Made by a program: the position numbers and the translations under genes. A stretch of DNA of 59,019 nt from Lachnospiraceae bacterium. GTDB taxonomy: Bacteria; Bacillota; Clostridia; Lachnospirales; Lachnospiraceae. The DNA lies in contig CAJTEM010000031.1 of assembly GCA_910575255.1 (NCBI GenBank), positions 1 through 59,019 on the forward strand, in the 5' to 3' direction. This document shows positions 2,745-34,124 of the stretch, piece by piece. Positions within the stretch are counted from its first letter, which is position 1, and each line of letters opens with the position of its first letter. The notes under the pieces were generated by a model that saw only the letters and a list, made by a program, of their open reading frames with translations, did no database searches and was not told the origin of the DNA.

Positions 2745-3500
2745 TCATCTGCGGTAACTGCAATCCATCTTGTCGCATGCTTCACAGCCCTGTATGCTGC
2801 AGATCCGGGACTTCCTGCTCAGCCCCATCACTGCTGTCACGGATTTGGACGGTGCCATCAAAAGACTGTCTGTCAGTGTCACGCCAATCCGCTTATTCAG
2901 TTCCAGAGCCGCCGCTATCCCTCTCTGGCATTCCAGAGGGAAATCCCCGTATCCCGGGCTGAATCTGGGCCGCATATACCAGCCTTTTTTCTGATACTCC
3001 TGCCGTAATTTTTCGTTCTTCCAGTCACAATAAGTCTCTAGCATCGCCGCGGATGCTGCCTGCAGAATCACTGCTTTACTCATCTGCAGATGTCCGTACC
3101 GATGCAGCAGGATATCCACCCCGCTGCCCAGAGTCGCACCAAATACCACAATCTGTCCGCAATCTTTGAGATTGCGCTCCAGATTCCTGCTTCTGGTCTG
3201 AAGACAAACCATATCCAGTACATGTTCCCGGACAGTGAGCGGGTACTCCCTCCACACTGCCTTAGGCGCCGCGGCCTGCTCCAGCTTGCGGCAGCACTCG
3301 CAGATCAGCTCTTCTACATTTACCGGAATCTCCTGCCCGCGATACCCCAGATACCTCAGGATCTCCTTCTCGTTCCAGGGAAACCCTTCCCCAGACTCCA
3401 GCCATCTTTCCATTCTGTCCGTCACTGTCGCACCACCTGATGCCCCCTCACGTTCGTTTGGCGGCATGTCGTCGGAAGGCAGCTTGAAAATGCTTTGCAT
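2745..3500 (-). CDS. Free-standing MetH reactivation (AdoMet-binding) domain protein
   Basis: This 251-residue protein resembles the MetH activation domain, which re-methylates oxidised cobalamin using AdoMet and an electron donor. The best marker is RPRFSPGYGDFPL at about residue 175-190, matching the AdoMet-binding RxxxGY region of the family. The C-terminus carries a cysteine cluster (CSIQGCEACDKMDC), common in these split proteins. An AGGAGGA site lies 6 bases before the ATG. It sits 42 bp upstream of metH and 11 bp after metF, so the three are probably co-transcribed. That it acts on the neighbouring MetH is inferred from the missing domain there. Confidence 0.88.
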   Translation of the reverse strand: MQSIFKLPSDDMPPNEREGASGGATVTDRMERWLESGEGFPWNEKEILRYLGYRGQEIPVNVEELICECCRKLEQAAAPKAVWREYPLTVREHVLDMVCLQTRSRNLERNLKDCGQIVVFGATLGSGVDILLHRYGHLQMSKAVILQAASAAMLETYCDWKNEKLRQEYQKKGWYMRPRFSPGYGDFPLECQRGIAAALELNKRIGVTLTDSLLMAPSKSVTAVMGLSRKSRICSIQGCEACDKMDCSYRR

Positions 3501-3511
3501 TTGTCTTCCTC

Positions 3512-4369
3512 CTACTGCAGAATCTCTGACAGGCTCTCCCGAATCCGTGCTGCCACATCCGGCTTGTTCATGGAATAGATATGGATCCCCTTCACTCCGT
3601 TGGCAATCAGATCAATGATCTGTTCCGTGGCATAAGCAATTCCCGCCTGCTTCATTGCCGCCGGCTTCTCCCCGAAGCGGTCTACAATCGCCTTAAACCG
3701 TGAAGGCAGGTACGTCCCTGACATAGAACAGATCCTTTGGATCTGCGCGGCATTCGTCACCGGCATGATTCCCGCAATCACCGGCACCGTCACCCCGGCC
3801 TCACGGATCCGATAGAGATAATTATACAGAATATTATTATCAAAAAACATCTGTGTAGTTACAAAGTCACAACCAGCCTCCACTTTCTCCTTCAGATGCC
3901 GGATATCTGCTGTCTTATTCTCCGATTCCACATGCCCTTCCGGATAGCAGGCGGCTCCGATACAAAAATCCCCGGTTCTCCGGATCTCTGCAATCAGCTC
4001 GGAAGCATAACGATAATCCTTTTCTACCTTTTTGTCTGCCGGAATGTCTCCCCGCAAAGCCAGAACATTCTCGATCCCACGTGACTTAAGCTCCTTAAGA
4101 ACTGACCAGACCTTCTCCCGTGTGGAAGACACACAGGTCAGATGGGCCAGCGGCGTCACCCCGCAATCCTGAATATCCGACGCGATATCCGCCGTATAGC
4201 GGCTGGTTCCCCCGCCTGCCCCGTAGGTCACACTCATAAATGCCGGCTTCAGCTTCGCAATCTCCCGTGCCGCCCTCTCCACGGAATCATATTTATCTTC
4301 TGTCTTGGGCGGAAACACCTCAAAAGAAAGAATCGGTTCCCCTTTTGAAAGAATTTCTCTGATCTTCAT
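3512..4369 (-). CDS. metF: Methylenetetrahydrofolate reductase
   Basis: This is a flavin-dependent TIM-barrel enzyme that reduces 5,10-methylene- to 5-methyltetrahydrofolate, the methyl donor for MetH. It has 285 residues, the usual bacterial MetF size. Family features visible are FEVFPPKTE near the N-terminus, SVTYGAGG, ALRGDIP, and the C-terminal GIHIYSMNKP. The GAGAGGGAC ribosome site supports the ATG at 4369. It begins 21 bp after the upstream membrane-protein gene and ends 11 bp before the MetH reactivase, which suggests one transcript for methyl supply and use. Confidence 0.95.
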   Translation of the reverse strand: MKIREILSKGEPILSFEVFPPKTEDKYDSVERAAREIAKLKPAFMSVTYGAGGGTSRYTADIASDIQDCGVTPLAHLTCVSSTREKVWSVLKELKSRGIENVLALRGDIPADKKVEKDYRYASELIAEIRRTGDFCIGAACYPEGHVESENKTADIRHLKEKVEAGCDFVTTQMFFDNNILYNYLYRIREAGVTVPVIAGIMPVTNAAQIQRICSMSGTYLPSRFKAIVDRFGEKPAAMKQAGIAYATEQIIDLIANGVKGIHIYSMNKPDVAARIRESLSEILQ

Positions 4370-28072: not shown

Positions 28073-28993
28073 TTAAAGATTACTGAAATATCCTCTTCTA
28101 ATAATTTCCTTTATACCACTAACGACCGTTTCGTAAGGAACATATGTAAATAAAAGCTTGCCAGTAATCGTTTCATAATCTTGCCGATATATTTCTTTAT
28201 CCACAATCTCTGCCAGAACGTCATTGACACATACCCCTGCTTTCGCGGACGGACAAACCGGAAGAGGTTCCCGTAGGTTCCGAACTTCCTGAACAAGCCC
28301 CAATAAAGATGCATCTGGCTTAGTGTATTCCATAATCTTGTAGATATCATATAAATGCCGGGAATGCCGGTCAATCTTATCTGACAAATAATAATCACAG
28401 ATGGCAAAGACCTTATCAATCAGAGTCCGCTCAATCGCCTGCGTTGTGATCTCAAAGGGCATGATGTCAAATTCTTCTGCCAGTTCTTCCTGTTCCGTCA
28501 TTTTCAAGAAACGGTATATATAATTATCGGCCATGCGGTTTACTGTCGGAAAGGGCAATAGGGCAATATAGGTTTCAATGAGCAATTCTGGTTTTAATTC
28601 CAACAGCGGGGAATAAATACTGGGATAACCAGCCCTGTAACAGTTATAACTGCGCCGGCTACGGGTTTCTTCGAGGTTTGTAACAGAGAACCCCAGAGAC
28701 TCTATGGAAGAAATAACTGCCTTTTTTAGCTGCCGCTTACGACTTTCGCCAGGAACGCCTTCTGATGCGGCATAGGAAATATCTATATCTTCCGAAAAGC
28801 GATCCAAAATCTGATAGCATTTTGTCAGAGAGGTGCCGCCTTTAAAAACCATCCACTTTACCCTGGAGGCCAGCTCCTTGAGAGCAAGCGTAACATAATA
28901 ATCCTTTTCAATAATTCCGGGAGGTATATGCAGTTCGTTAGAAGCAGCGATGATAAATTCGCTAAATACTTCGTGGTCATGATGTAAATTCAT
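28073..28993 (-). CDS. AbiEii-type nucleotidyltransferase toxin
   Basis: This 306-residue protein has the nucleotidyltransferase core FKGGTSLTKCYQILDRFSEDIDIS at about 45-70, with GGTS and the DxD pair, and a C-terminal helical part. AbiEii-like toxins modify tRNA or other targets and give phage-abortive infection or type IV toxin-antitoxin behaviour. It overlaps the antitoxin-like gene upstream by 17 bp, as in abiE operons. ATG 28993 is preceded by GGGGA at usable spacing. An ATG at 29011 is a less likely start. Which target is modified cannot be read from sequence. Confidence 0.88.
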   Translation of the reverse strand: MNLHHDHEVFSEFIIAASNELHIPPGIIEKDYYVTLALKELASRVKWMVFKGGTSLTKCYQILDRFSEDIDISYAASEGVPGESRKRQLKKAVISSIESLGFSVTNLEETRSRRSYNCYRAGYPSIYSPLLELKPELLIETYIALLPFPTVNRMADNYIYRFLKMTEQEELAEEFDIMPFEITTQAIERTLIDKVFAICDYYLSDKIDRHSRHLYDIYKIMEYTKPDASLLGLVQEVRNLREPLPVCPSAKAGVCVNDVLAEIVDKEIYRQDYETITGKLLFTYVPYETVVSGIKEIIRRGYFSNL

Positions 28994-29603
28994 AAATAAT
29001 TCCCCATTCAATCAGTTTTTTTGCAGTAGGACCTGTAATGCCAGACAATACGCTGGAAAGAAGTTCCTTACTATAATTTTGTTGTTTTGCATAGTTTCTC
29101 AGAAGATTCCCGGTTTCTAAAGCAGAAAGCTCAGAATACTTTTCTGCCTGGGAAACGGCATCCAAAAGCTGGAGCAATGCAGCGTTTTCCGATGTTATAG
29201 TCGTAGCGGGCCGTTTCAGCCGGATAGCTTGGGAGCCTACGGTAACTGTACGCCCCTTTGTTGATTCTTTTAATGTGATGATCTCCAACATTGCCGGCAT
29301 CTGGGTTGTCAGACCGATCTGATTGGCAAAAGTAGCTCCGGCGAAGTATCCGTAGATTTCTGTTGTACTTTGGATATATTTGCGTATAATGACTTTCATG
29401 GGATCTAAATAACTTTTTTTCAGCAGCCGTGACGCTTTGGGGAGATAATAAATCCCTGTGTCAAAACGAGCCAGGTCGCCTGACTTGAGCATCCGTTTGA
29501 AATACTGGCGCAGGGCATTATCATTAAGCCCATCCAGCTGAATCTCGTTTATGAAAATCGGTTCGTTGTAACCATAGTTTTTTTCCAGATATTCCTTCAG
29601 CAT
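28977..29603 (-). CDS. AbiEi-type antitoxin/regulator (DUF6088-like)
   Basis: This 208-residue protein has an N-terminal winged helix (FINEIQLDGLNDNALRQYFKRMLKSGDLARFDTGIYYLP at about 18-57) and a C-terminal domain. That layout fits antitoxins paired with AbiEii, which repress their own promoter. ATG 29603 (MLKEYLEKNYG) is preceded by AAGGAG. The next gene is the toxin, overlapping. The upstream AT-rich 29605-29700 stretch should hold the operon promoter. Confidence 0.83.
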   Translation of the reverse strand: MLKEYLEKNYGYNEPIFINEIQLDGLNDNALRQYFKRMLKSGDLARFDTGIYYLPKASRLLKKSYLDPMKVIIRKYIQSTTEIYGYFAGATFANQIGLTTQMPAMLEIITLKESTKGRTVTVGSQAIRLKRPATTITSENAALLQLLDAVSQAEKYSELSALETGNLLRNYAKQQNYSKELLSSVLSGITGPTAKKLIEWGIIYEFTS

Positions 29604-29799
29604 ACAGGTATCCACTCCTTCCACCTCCATACTACTATATTTATACCTAAAAGGTCAATAGATATGTCAAAATATAGTTTGTATGTTTTTTTCAGAATTA
29701 TGCAGAGAAGATAAAAGAGCGGATACCTTTAGCTGTCTATAAATCTATATGTTTTCGTATATACCCAAAAGCATACATTGGTTAGGCAGCAGAAACTTT

Positions 29800-30472: not shown

Positions 30473-31666
30473 ATGAATACACCAAAACCTTTGTTACTTG
30501 CAGCCGAACACAAGGAAAAACTCGAAAAACTTGTAAAATCCGGCATGACTCCTGCGATCATTGTACAACGCGCAAAGATATTGATTTTAAAAGCAGATGG
30601 CCGCTCAAACGATTCCGTTGCAGAGGAACTTGGCATAAACAAGAGAACAGTTCTTCTTTGGACCAAAAAGTATCGCAACCGCTCCGCCAATGAAACACTG
30701 GATGATATCTTAAGCGTTTCTGAGGGCAGAGGCCCCAAAGAGGAAATCTCCGGTGAGGCCAAAACCTGGATAACAGGTATTGCCTGCCAAAAACCGAAAG
30801 ACCTTGGCTATGCAGCTGAAACATGGACGAATTCAGCATTGACCAGACATATCCGTCAACACACTGCGGCCGCAGGTTACCAACGTCTTACAACGATTTC
30901 GGAAAGCAGTGTGTTTAAAATTCTTTCAAAAAGTAACATTAAGCCATTCCGTGTTCAGTATTACTGCGGGCGGCTTGACCCGGACTTCGACAGCAAAATG
31001 CATAATGTCCTTCTCGTGTACAAGCAGATCTTGCTTCAGTTTGATAAGGAAGGTAAGCGGATCCCGTTTGAGGGTCAGGCAACACACGTCCTTTCCTATG
31101 ATGAAAAACCCGGGATCCAGGCCATTGCAACAACCGGAGAGGATCTCCTGCCTAATGAGGGCCATGGCACCATAAAGCGTGATTATGAGTATAAGCGGCT
31201 TGGTACAGTATCGCTGCTTGCGGGAATAGACCTCCAGACAGGTGAAGCGATTCCTCTAGTAAGTGATACGCATAACAGCAGAGATTATATCGCTTTTCTT
31301 GAGAATTTGAATAACAAATATCCCTAGGAAGATAAGATCCGCCTTATCCTCGATAATTTAAAGGTGCATTCATCTGCAGATGTACAGGAATATCTATCAA
31401 CCGTACCTGGCAGATTCGAGTTTGTGTTCACGCCAAAGCATGCATCATGGCTCAACCTTGCAGAAGGTTTCTTCAGTAAAATGACAAAACAGATGCTGAG
31501 AAACATACGGGTCAAAACAAAGGACGAATTAGTAACTCGCATCTACAAATATTTTGATGAAATCAATGAAACTCCAGTGGTTTATCATTGGACGTGGAAT
31601 TTGGGCGACATTGATGCATCTGAAACTGTGGTTACTGAAACATTTTCAAAAAGTGTAACTAATTAA
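30473..31666 (+). pseudogene. IS630-family transposase with in-frame amber stop
   Basis: The frame reads an N-terminal helix-turn-helix (DSVAEELGINKRTVLLWTKKY), then a DDE core with LSYDEKPGIQAIATTGEDL and the next Asp in IRLILDNLKVHSS, and ends at 31666. A TAG at 31325-31327 (after ENLNNKYP) splits it into 284 and 113 codons in the same frame. A single AAG-to-TAG change would explain this. AAAGGAG precedes the ATG. The right edge near 31673-31683 has GTTATACTAGT. No matching left terminal repeat was found, so the IS may be truncated. It should be inactive unless the stop is suppressed. Confidence 0.85.
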
Positions 31667-31933: not shown

Positions 31934-32069
31934 CGTTTGCGGAAGGATTCGAACCTTCGGTGCGTTGCCGCACACCGCCTTAGCAGGTCGCAGGATGTCC
32001 GGGGGACATCCGCTTTGCGACGACCGAAGTGGAACGGAGAGGCACCATAGACCTCTCGGACACACAAAC
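31934..32069 (-). tRNA. tRNA-Ser(GCU)-like gene interrupted by a 53-nt insert
   Basis: The acceptor GTTTGTG (from 32069) pairs with CGCAAAC (31935-31941), G73 follows, and the T arm (GAAGG, TTCGAAT, CCTTC) and long variable arm are intact. The anticodon loop CTGCTAA has anticodon GCT at 31982-31984. The 5' strand of the anticodon stem, expected CCGCC, is replaced by a 53-nt structured insert at 31988-32040. Without it the gene would be about 88 nt, normal for serine. Whether an RNA is matured from it is unknown. Confidence 0.75.
31988..32040 (-). repeat. tRNA-embedded hairpin element, Ser copy
   Basis: Read on the tRNA strand it has CCGTTCCACTTCGG, then outer stem GTCGCA/TGCGAC, a 4-nt bulge AAGC, inner stem GGATGTCC/GGACATCC and a CCC loop. 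The His copy (opposite orientation) and a diverged Lys copy share this plan with base-pair-preserving changes. Confidence 0.8.
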
Positions 32070-32075
32070 GGAAAG

Positions 32076-32158
32076 TGGATGGGGCAGGACTCGAACCTGC
32101 GGTGTTTCTTTGTGACGGATTTACAGTCCGCTGCCCTCGCCACTAGGCATACCCATCC
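32076..32158 (-). tRNA. tRNA-Tyr(GUA)
   Basis: This 83-nt gene has acceptor GGATGGG pairing with CCCATCC, D arm, anticodon loop CTGTAAA with GTA, a variable region typical of tyrosine tRNA, and T loop TTCGAGT. Discriminator A is followed by no encoded CCA. It is the only intact tRNA of the cluster. Confidence 0.93.
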
Positions 32159-32162
32159 ATGG

Positions 32163-32284
32163 GGTGACCAGGGGGAATCGGTCTCCGCTCCGCTTCGGTC
32201 GGCGCAGAGCAGATGTCCCCCGGACATCTTGCGCCCCCATAAGCAGAGCCACAATCTGCCGGACTACCATTGTCCTATAGCCAC
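32163..32284 (-). tRNA. tRNA-His(GUG)-like gene with a 58-nt T-loop insert
   Basis: Acceptor GTGGCTA pairs with TGGTCAC over seven positions with two wobble pairs. The anticodon stem GCAGA/TCTGC holds loop TTGTGGC (anticodon at 32250-32252), C73 is present, and CCA is encoded at 32160-32162. The T stem is GGGGG/CCCCC, but the T loop, normally seven bases, is a 58-nt stretch (32176-32233) that keeps CGATT at its 3' end. It lacks an encoded G-1. It starts 1 bp upstream of tRNA-Tyr after the CCA. Confidence 0.75.
32176..32233. repeat. tRNA-embedded hairpin element, His copy
   Basis: In the orientation opposite to the tRNA it reads CTCCGCTCCGCTTCGGTC, outer stem GGCGCA/TGCGCC, bulge GAGC, inner stem AGATGTCC/GGACATCT, loop CCC. 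About 85% of bases match the Ser copy, and stem differences are compensated. Confidence 0.8.
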
Positions 32285-32288
32285 AGTA

Positions 32289-32410
32289 GCTCCTGCGGGG
32301 TGCTGTGGTCCGGTGGACCACGTTTAGCACGGACCGGAACGAAGTGGAAACCTCGGACCCATGGCCACTCTATTAAAAGTCGAGTGCTCTTCCATCTGAG
32401 CGAATGGAGC
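32289..32410 (-). tRNA. tRNA-Lys(UUU)-like gene, T arm disrupted by a ~57-nt insert
   Basis: The 5' half is normal for lysine: acceptor GCTCCAT, D arm GCTCAGATGGAAGAGC and anticodon loop CTTTTAA with TTT at 32375-32377. After ATGGG the T loop is replaced by about 57 nt (32301-32357). CCCC and GGAGC then allow only partial T-stem and acceptor pairing, with four mismatched positions. The total of 122 nt equals that of the His gene. It looks more decayed than His and may be a pseudogene. Confidence 0.6.
32301..32357 (-). repeat. tRNA-embedded hairpin element, Lys copy
   Basis: It contains TTTCCACTTCG, outer stem GTGCT/AGCAC, bulge AAAC, inner stem GTGGTCC/GGACCAC and loop ACC. It has the same architecture as the Ser and His copies with different bases in both stems. 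Confidence 0.75.
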
Positions 32411-32504: not shown

Positions 32505-32648
32505 TCACACAGTTTTTCGCCTTTTCCTTACCTTACATGAGCGCATCTTAACCAGACTCTGTTCTTTTTCTTTACTGAACAGTGCCTCATAATGTTCGCT
32601 ATGCAGATAATATGCGAAAGCCTTCGCAGCGAAATTAACTGTTGCCAT
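32505..32648 (-). CDS. Small basic hypothetical protein, 47 residues
   Basis: An ATG at 32648 with AAAGGAA seven bases upstream opens a 47-codon frame. The product begins MATVNFAAKAFAYYLHSEHY and has a very basic end. No family is recognised. Its own terminator lies at 32413-32448. The left attachment repeat of the 18-kb element is about 75 bp upstream, so integration probably changed its promoter region. Confidence 0.5.
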   Translation of the reverse strand: MATVNFAAKAFAYYLHSEHYEALFSKEKEQSLVKMRSCKVRKRRKTV

Positions 32649-32723
32649 GATCATTTCCTTTCTGGACTCATTCGGTCCGCTTTTTTCTTAACTGTAATTA
32701 CTATAACACCAATTCACGAATTT

Positions 32724-32944: not shown

Positions 32945-34051
32945 CTATATCACAATTTTTAGATTGTCCATTTCCTTTTGTTTTGTATTGGGCAAAACGT
33001 GGCTGTATAAGTCCATCGTCATTGCAAGGCTGCTATGCCCCAGGATGGTCTTCAAGGTCTGGGGGCTCCCTCCCTGCTCTATATACCGTGTCGCAAAGGT
33101 ATCCCTTAAAGCGTGTGCTGTGAAATGCTCCATTGGTCTGCCCTGCTCTTCCAGTCTGGCCAGTGCGTCACTGATTGCCCGGTTTATTGCGTGGTTATGT
33201 ACTATGCCGCCATATACGGATGCAAAAATCCTGTTGTCATTCATCGGCAGAACATTCCCAAGCTTTTTCCGCTGGTCTGACAGAACCCCCTTGATTGTAT
33301 CATTTAACGGAATATCCCTCTTCCCCGCTTCGCTTTTGGGGCTCCCTATTGCCATGGTGCCATTCTCATTGAAAGTGACGGTCTTCGTTACATGAATAAC
33401 ATTCTGCCTGTAGTCGATATCGCTCCATGCCAGGGCGGCGGCTTCACCAATCCTCATGCCCGTGCATAAAAGAAGCAAAACAAACTCGTAATAATAATCT
33501 TTCGCCATCTCCTGCATGAAGTCCTTTTGCTCCTGTTCTGACAGCGCCCTGTGGTATGTTTCCGTAGCCTTGTCCGTCTCCTTTAAAGCCTTAATTCCAT
33601 CCGCAGGGCTTTTGAGAATAATATCATCATGTACAGCATCATTCAGGACTACTTTTAATGTCCTCATTACCCCATTGCAGGTAGTTGCTGCCAACCTCTC
33701 GGAAATATCCCTCTGCATGTTCAAAATTTCCCTGCGTTCAAGTTGCTGTACTTTTCTGCCGCCAATCTGCGGAGATATATGCTTGTAATAATAGCTTCTA
33801 TATGTTTTCAGGGTGTTACCCTTTGTTCCGTTCCTCTTCCCGGTCAGCCATTCAGCAAAATACTGGTCAAGCGTCAGATTCCGGTTATCCGTGTATATCC
33901 CGGCTTCAATCTTTTTCCTGATCTCCTGTTCTTTCTGCGAAATCTCCTTTGTATTCTTCCCGTAAATGCTGTACCTCTTGCCGTCTATGGTAAACCGCTT
34001 CTCCAGTGTGCCGTCTGCACGTTTCCTTGTACCGGCTCCCAGTCTTGCCAT
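32945..34051 (-). CDS. Tyrosine recombinase/integrase of the 18.4-kb element
   Basis: This 368-residue integrase has an N-terminal AP2-like arm domain (RFTIDGKRYSIYGKNTKEISQKEQ), a SAM-like core-binding domain (about 60-160) and the catalytic domain. Catalytic residues are seen in CTGMRIGEAAAL (Arg), HALRDTFATR (His, Arg), LGHSSLAMTMDLYSHV (His, Tyr). It resembles Tn916/ICE and phage integrases. ATG 34051 has AAAGGCGG upstream. It is last in a run of small overlapping genes from 35783, so excision may depend on that transcript. Confidence 0.95.
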   Translation of the reverse strand: MARLGAGTRKRADGTLEKRFTIDGKRYSIYGKNTKEISQKEQEIRKKIEAGIYTDNRNLTLDQYFAEWLTGKRNGTKGNTLKTYRSYYYKHISPQIGGRKVQQLERREILNMQRDISERLAATTCNGVMRTLKVVLNDAVHDDIILKSPADGIKALKETDKATETYHRALSEQEQKDFMQEMAKDYYYEFVLLLLCTGMRIGEAAALAWSDIDYRQNVIHVTKTVTFNENGTMAIGSPKSEAGKRDIPLNDTIKGVLSDQRKKLGNVLPMNDNRIFASVYGGIVHNHAINRAISDALARLEEQGRPMEHFTAHALRDTFATRYIEQGGSPQTLKTILGHSSLAMTMDLYSHVLPNTKQKEMDNLKIVI

Positions 34052-34124
34052 AATAAGCACCGCCTTTCTATAATGTGGGACAGGGCAGCAGTCATAAAAG
34101 CCGCCGCCCGCTCCCTTATTCCCT

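Follow-up and report, generated by a model that had tools for sequence, protein, structure and literature searches.

Copies of a short hairpin repeat within the tRNA genes of an accessory array in Lachnospiraceae

REPs, the palindromes of the REP/RAYT system, have a GTAG-type guide. Rickettsia palindromic elements (RPEs), in the passages of the source devoted to them, are repeats of 105–146 bp with copies also in tmRNA and RNase P RNA (PMC2229807), and the Dada transposons of fish are described in excerpt as inserting into tRNA or other multicopy RNA genes (PMC8869645). In Anabaena, according to the relevant portions of one report, a spare tRNA operon and rtcB are held under one repressor and released by translational stress (PMC10272220). 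The locus described here, a tRNA cluster in a 59,019-nt stretch of Lachnospiraceae DNA (GCA_910575255.1, contig CAJTEM010000031.1; hereafter the window), resembles the RPE case in having palindromic repeats inside RNA genes, and differs from it, as far as the quoted source goes, in that the element is 53–55 nt long, belongs to Lachnospiraceae, and lies inside tRNA genes. We consider it probable that these inserts are copies of a non-autonomous, REP/MITE-like hairpin repeat of Lachnospiraceae, inserted in redundant tRNAs, with fusion, loss, and decay following.

The interrupted cluster and the hairpin element

Positions 31934–32410 hold, on the minus strand, pieces of a tRNA-Lys, pieces of a tRNA-His, an intact tRNA-Tyr, and pieces of a tRNA-Ser, the Tyr gene being the sole tRNA of the cluster called by ARAGORN and by Rfam at the gathering threshold. 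An earlier note on this DNA had claimed that related structured inserts occupy the Ser, His, and Lys genes, with the His copy oppositely oriented and the Tyr gene clean. All of this was borne out: a covariance model (R1), built from 15 copies with 14 pairs and trained on a set including the window His and Ser copies, not the Lys copy, found exactly three copies in the 59-kb window, all in the tRNA cluster. The inserts lie where they had been placed, with R1 bounds of 31987–32041, 32181–32235, and 32299–32351 replacing the 31988–32040, 32176–32233, and 32301–32357 given before. The parts of the cluster are as follows (L numbers denote loci used for comparison, G numbers genomes).

32505..32654, minus strand: short ORF of 49 aa, leader-like, upstream of the array; a related ORF occupies the same place in L256, and a different short ORF in L297
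32413..32449, minus strand: hairpin with T run, terminator-like, just upstream of the Lys part; a similar stretch occurs in L256, L266, L297, and L298
32352..32410, minus strand: tRNA-Lys(UUU) 5′ part, to the T loop (blastn and reading against sister loci)
32299..32351, minus strand: hairpin element, 53-nt type, in the former tRNA-Lys T loop (R1 match 52.3 bits, E 8.4e-13)
32286..32298, minus strand: tRNA-Glu(CUC) 3′ end joined to the Lys element; the Glu(CUC) genes of L007 and L078 end in the same sequence
32234..32284, minus strand: tRNA-His(GUG) 5′ part
32181..32235, plus strand: hairpin element, 55-nt type, in the tRNA-His T loop, opposed to the tRNA direction (R1 match 81.3 bits, E 8.6e-21)
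32160..32180, minus strand: tRNA-His 3′ part, T loop without its leading TT
32075..32158, minus strand: intact tRNA-Tyr(GUA) (ARAGORN; Rfam RF00005, 56.5 bits)
32042..32069, minus strand: tRNA-Ser(GCU) 5′ part
31987..32041, minus strand: hairpin element, 55-nt type, within the anticodon stem (5′ strand) of tRNA-Ser (R1 match 74.5 bits, E 6.7e-19)
31934..31986, minus strand: tRNA-Ser(GCU) 3′ part, anticodon loop onward

Elsewhere in the window, an AbiEii toxin gene and a DUF6088 (AbiEi-like) gene lie near the array at 28073–29630, and AbiE-like genes are also found near the array in L079, L080, and L084. A tyrosine integrase at 32945–34060 lies some 500 bp away from the Lys part and may mark an integrative element beside the array, and a transposase split into two ORFs at 30473–31666, with HTH domains and a DDE_3 match below the curated cut-off, is presumably IS630-like. 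A GA-cis RNA (RF02987, 50.4 bits) lies at 3432–3516 on the minus strand.

The element copies, 53–55 nt long, form one homologous family with a common plan: a 20-nt head, a 5–6 bp outer stem, a 4-nt 5′ bulge, a 7–8 bp inner stem, and a 3-nt loop. In the 15-sequence alignment, 97.6% of cells were paired, and two-sided changes were found in 10 of the 14 pairs, with none of 500 shuffles reaching the observed value in either measure; the common plan with compensated stems proposed earlier is thereby upheld. Searches of Rfam gave no match for the element, and no published description was found in a literature search judged on titles, abstract openings, and selected passages. No group I or group II intron was matched by Rfam in the region, where the inserts measure 53–55 nt. 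Terminal inverted repeats are absent: the arms span the hairpin only, leaving the consensus 20-nt head unpaired.

Insertion sites, empty sites, and dispersal

Most copies within tRNA genes occupy the T loop toward its 3′ side (TTCRAG-element-CC) or lie at about nt 25–31; one is in a variable arm, and none was read in an anticodon loop or acceptor stem. Contrary to what had been supposed, the insert does not replace the T loop: forward copies keep the first six loop nucleotides (mostly TTCRAG; TCCGAG in the window Lys and many other Lys genes), with 1–2 nt lost before the 3′ stem strand relative to empty sites. The oppositely oriented His copy comes after AATCG, and the T loop there lacks its leading TT. 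That the Ser insert stands in the 5′ strand of the anticodon stem holds against empty sites, with the loss now fixed at the 4 nt CACC between GGTGC and CTGCTAA. Comparison of filled and empty tRNA sites revealed no target duplication, a few nucleotides being lost instead. In L204, from another genus, a different copy occupies the same Ser site, which supports mobility, and a reverse copy lies in a Glu gene between the D stem and anticodon stem.

Flanks were also read at 36 hand-picked, non-redundant sites, a set meant as non-tRNA in which one site (L215) lies in a tRNA-Met 3′ fragment. The left flank has C in 19/36 and G in 21/36, and the right flank C in 26/36, Y in 32/36, and Y in 26/36. The element may have a G-NN-CYY-like target preference, which tRNA T arms would match on both strands. 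A tendency of non-tRNA copies to sit at a palindrome apex is not claimed, because the effect was slight and varied with the length of flank used (18 of 2000 permutations with a 14-nt flank, 347 and 337 in two runs with 20 nt, and 102 with 30 nt). Other hairpins were noticed in tRNA genes as well. In L256 (G345:C23), the second array of A. muris, the Lys (about 1321–1414) and His (about 724–812) genes, both on the minus strand, carry short non-R1 hairpins before or in the anticodon stem, and in L055 (about 2001–2038) the T loop of a Glu(CUC) gene beside RtcB and XRE holds another unrelated hairpin of about 36 nt.

The sister clusters run in the order Lys, XRE ORF, Glu(UUC), Glu(CUC), His, Tyr, Ser. 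The comparison of sisters for empty sites, as suggested in the earlier note, yielded insert-free Lys (L079, L201, L202, L205, L208, L227), His (L010, L011, L079, L080, L096, L227), and Ser (L007, L010, L011, L079, L080, L084, L095, and others) as well as Glu and Tyr genes, such that each of the six cluster tRNA genes is insert-free in some locus and interrupted in another. Five of the six are interrupted in L078, Lys, Glu(UUC), and Glu(CUC) among them, and the Tyr gene of L208 is interrupted twice. The Lys gene of L096, from the cultured isolate Acetatifactor muris DSM 23669, is interrupted as well.

The window gene previously read as Lys-like fuses Lys to Glu(CUC): the 3′ end of tRNA-Glu(CUC) supplies its final 13 nt (32298–32286), and its 5′ part holds an anticodon-stem mismatch relative to the sisters; because of the fusion, the equal length of 122 nt noticed for the His and Lys genes is a coincidence. 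Lys/Glu(UUC) fusions are present in L008 and L009, and in each case the element lies at the fusion point. Recombination between two elements best explains the window fusion, and L078 still carries both of them: those of Lys and Glu(CUC) would have recombined, with deletion of the XRE ORF and Glu(UUC), in a presumed order of events, and the fusion in L008 would have arisen likewise from the elements of Lys and Glu(UUC).

L011 Lys and L013 His hold deletion-like remnants that look like later loss of the hairpin, and decay is visible in the window Lys, L266 Lys, L096 Ser (truncation), and L091 (acceptor mismatches); damaged intact genes also exist (L205, L075, L203). Stem damage was counted over 28 cluster loci, some of them near-identical, with 33 interrupted genes, 62 intact genes (Tyr apart), and 22 intact Tyr genes, and with nine genes lacking a clear 3′ partner (the window Lys among them) and the L013 His remnant (0/18 pairs broken) left aside. 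Broken pairs numbered 7/617 in interrupted genes, 4 of the 7 coming from the Lys/Glu(UUC) fusions L008 and L009, 10/1119 in intact genes, and 0/396 in intact Tyr genes. Decay is seen in single cases, with no clear excess in interrupted tRNA genes, and tRNA function of these genes is therefore not disproved. The idea of a new kind of functional tRNA insert is not supported, several interrupted copies being fused, truncated, or decayed, although selection on others is possible.

Beyond the cluster, the covariance-model search proposed earlier did return further copies: at least 35 in the source genome (150 of 1320 first-look candidates scored), 3 of them in the window cluster, and matches in 27 of 61 genomes (the source and 60 relatives), with at least 93 copies in one genome. 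Blastn of junctions against 224 tRNAs gave tRNA flanks at 0 of 32 source-genome copies outside the cluster and recovered 17 of 19 known tRNA sites as a positive control; it was used in place of joined flanks with ARAGORN, which missed two of three known tRNA sites. Several of the non-cluster copies belong to larger repeats with common flanks. Among 29 relatives' sites assumed to be non-tRNA, three touch tRNA sequence in this test: the L067 copy adjoins an intact tRNA-Pro; the L022 match seems to be just element sequence within a library tRNA call; and the L215 copy (about 1490–1566) lies, with the place and orientation seen in His, at the T loop of a tRNA-Met 3′ end present as a duplicate next to the intact tRNA-Met. 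This duplicate with its element may be an attachment-site remnant. A pattern with the T-loop 5′ flank retrieved 36 stretches in named genomes, some tRNA genes and some not, with titles mostly of Lachnospiraceae and otherwise of Clostridia, Clostridiaceae, Oribacterium, Acetatifactor, and similar. In viral contigs, no stretch had the T-loop insertion and five matched the general head pattern; in phage and plasmid records, the query matched in pieces only, and of 14 such records 11 did so in the Tyr part. In L170–L172 and L043–L051, a longer repeat with termini CTAGTAC...GTACTAG extends about 200 nt on either side of the element and looks MITE-like. Overall, the element copies are homologous and structured, are scattered in either orientation through the genomes of gut bacteria, and are lacking at the corresponding tRNA genes of relatives. 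The earlier suggestion of a small, possibly mobile hairpin element is supported by these dispersed copies, the empty sites, and several separate insertion sites.

The XRE–RtcB–tRNA array

The cluster is an accessory array, with a plan of short ORF, hairpin with T run, tRNA-Lys, often an RtcB ligase, an XRE regulator, and then tRNAs. Units with varying tRNA sets after XRE recur in Lachnospiraceae, as at L227 (1066–1329, minus strand) and L284 (230–1351, plus strand), and the recurrent unit looks like an RNA-repair and spare-tRNA operon. The short ORF and the hairpin with T run precede the array in the window, L256, and L297, an arrangement suggesting that the array may be under attenuation.

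A survey blind to the element was made with an 87-aa XRE protein (HTH_3) as query, which matched 120 of 397 genomes at E 1e-12 or better; 30 loci were taken. ARAGORN called tRNAs in 17 of these, and a Leu remnant is present in one more (L273). R1 copies occur in six, three of which (L268, L269, L291) are the same places as L208, L010, and L204. The earlier claim that the element targets tRNA genes is half right: it holds for all nine copies in these arrays, each in a tRNA gene or remnant, and fails for the dispersed copies of the source genome. Five of the nine lie in T loops (of Tyr, Glu(CUC), Leu, Lys, and a tRNA with anticodon AGA), and the others at the D/anticodon junction of Tyr, in the variable arm of the AGA-anticodon tRNA, and at nt 25–31 of Ser and Glu(UUC); the Leu, Lys, and AGA-anticodon hosts were assigned by reading the flanks, with blastn support for Leu and Lys and no ARAGORN call. 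A binomial calculation on an earlier 7-site set gave p 0.017 for 7/7 in tRNA genes and p 6e-6 for at least 5/7 in T loops; 9/9 is the better figure because that set was partly fetched by the T-loop pattern. RtcB (PF01139) adjoins the XRE gene in 16 of the 30 loci (within 1.5 kb on each side) and lies beside interrupted tRNAs in L098, L110, L273, L274, and L284, the L098 locus being from an Oribacterium with an element-bearing Lys followed by RtcB and XRE; no RtcB was found in the window or, over the short flanks examined, in window-type cluster loci.

As to redundancy, G346, the genome of L078, has 66 tRNA matches, and for each isotype interrupted there, namely Lys(UUU), Glu(UUC), Glu(CUC), His, and Ser(GCU), an intact gene is present at another place. 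The earlier note had called for a count of other copies in the source genome, and these exist for His and Ser(GCU), whereas no second Lys(UUU) or Tyr gene was found in the draft of 106 contigs (150 of 190 candidates scored in one search). The assembly is likely incomplete, since other expected tRNAs and anticodons are also absent.

Readings of the inserts and known systems

For a mobile repeat, a DNA-level machinery would insert the hairpin at G-NN-CYY-like sites, with few target bases lost and no duplication. The insertions would persist because the array is a redundant, probably stress-induced RtcB–XRE–tRNA operon with working tRNA copies presumably elsewhere; insertion probably silences the host genes, which would then fuse, lose the hairpin, or decay, most of them being or becoming pseudogenes. 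Against this reading stand the lack of a transposase partner, of target duplication, of a clear damage excess, and of a second Lys(UUU) or Tyr in the assembly. Y1_Tnp numbers compared by eye with element numbers bear no obvious relation, and ten Y1_Tnp loci gave no significant R1 match (best E 0.24). A single mobile family also does not explain why unrelated hairpins occupy these tRNA regions in L256 Lys and His and in L055 Glu. Transfer between tRNA genes by gene conversion or recombination via similar T arms, rather than transposition, would account for the common GTGGTCC inner stem of the L078 Lys, Glu(UUC), and Glu(CUC) copies, a subtype found in 3 of 397 sampled genomes and always in Lys or Glu of this array; however, the heads differ among these three copies, the His, Ser, and Tyr copies are of other subtypes, including the reverse orientation, and the shared Ser site holds a different copy in another genus, all of which leaves gene conversion with slight probability.

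Most of the sequence evidence is against splicing or functional retention. That the interrupted tRNAs are functional, with the hairpin tolerated as an extra arm of the mature tRNA (at the 3′ side of the T loop or the D-stem/anticodon-stem junction), fits the retention of TTCRA and the 3′ T-stem strand in forward copies, the lack of a clear excess of stem damage, and the concentration of insertions at few places outside the anticodon loop and acceptor stem. However, the His T loop has lost TT, the Ser insertion removes the 5′ anticodon strand, and in five minimum-energy folds the T stem is missing from the Lys genes, the cloverleaf from His, and the anticodon stem from Ser; with decayed and fused copies besides, we regard an extra arm as unlikely. 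Bacterial tRNA introns, cut by an endonuclease and sealed by the RtcB of the same array type, are less probable still. They would agree with RtcB beside XRE and beside interrupted tRNAs in the loci named above and with the net lengthening by exactly 51 nt seen in 31 of the 33 interrupted genes scored in window-type clusters, a constancy rejected as a sign of splicing on account of other values elsewhere (+53 in L208 Tyr and L088 Ser). Introns are unlikely because copies occur in both orientations within tRNAs and mostly outside tRNAs, and because removal of the His insert, the loop having lost its leading TT, cannot restore TTC; the window Lys is a fusion, and removal of forward T-loop copies would restore a canonical tRNA, or nearly so. 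Moreover, no RtcB accompanies the window-type clusters (short flanks), and RtcB arrays also contain uninterrupted tRNAs. The position of RtcB beside interrupted tRNAs keeps processing alive as a long shot: it is conceivable, at very low probability, that RtcB–XRE–tRNA operons hold insert-bearing tRNAs on purpose, with hairpins processed (cut and resealed with RtcB, or kept as an extra arm) to resist or report a tRNA-cleaving attack. If such tRNAs proved to be processed, bacterial RtcB would have a splicing-like substrate in nature.

On the mobile-repeat reading, short hairpin repeats of a further family, one that Rfam does not match, have entered tRNA genes again and again at a few structural spots, which would explain how spare tRNA operons lose and fuse genes. 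This reading also carries a warning for annotation, in that ARAGORN misses the interrupted tRNAs of the window and apparent bacterial tRNA introns can be mobile repeats.

Among known systems, the Anabaena trn operon with TrcR and RtcB is alike in being a spare tRNA array whose repressor also controls rtcB, and the Lachnospiraceae array may by analogy play a similar role; there, however, the chromosome carries rtcB and a plasmid the array, and the portions of that report on the operon do not mention hairpin inserts (PMC10272220). Dada transposons share insertion into tRNA genes but are eukaryotic DNA transposons, likened here by their description (PMC8869645) and not by homology. Bacterial MITEs are similarly small, non-autonomous, and dispersed, and some element copies lie inside the CTAGTAC...GTACTAG repeat; unlike MITEs, the element shows no target-site duplication at tRNA sites and no terminal inverted repeat around its 20-nt head. 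REP/RAYT palindromes differ in being mainly extragenic, whereas the element enters tRNA genes repeatedly, shows no GTAG-type guide, and has no Y1/RAYT gene beside its copies in ten loci tested; they share with it a short imperfect hairpin, a bulge, an asymmetric 5′ head, many dispersed copies, and compensated subtypes. Set beside these systems, the element looks like a new family within a familiar class of small mobile repeats, and not like a novel type of intron.
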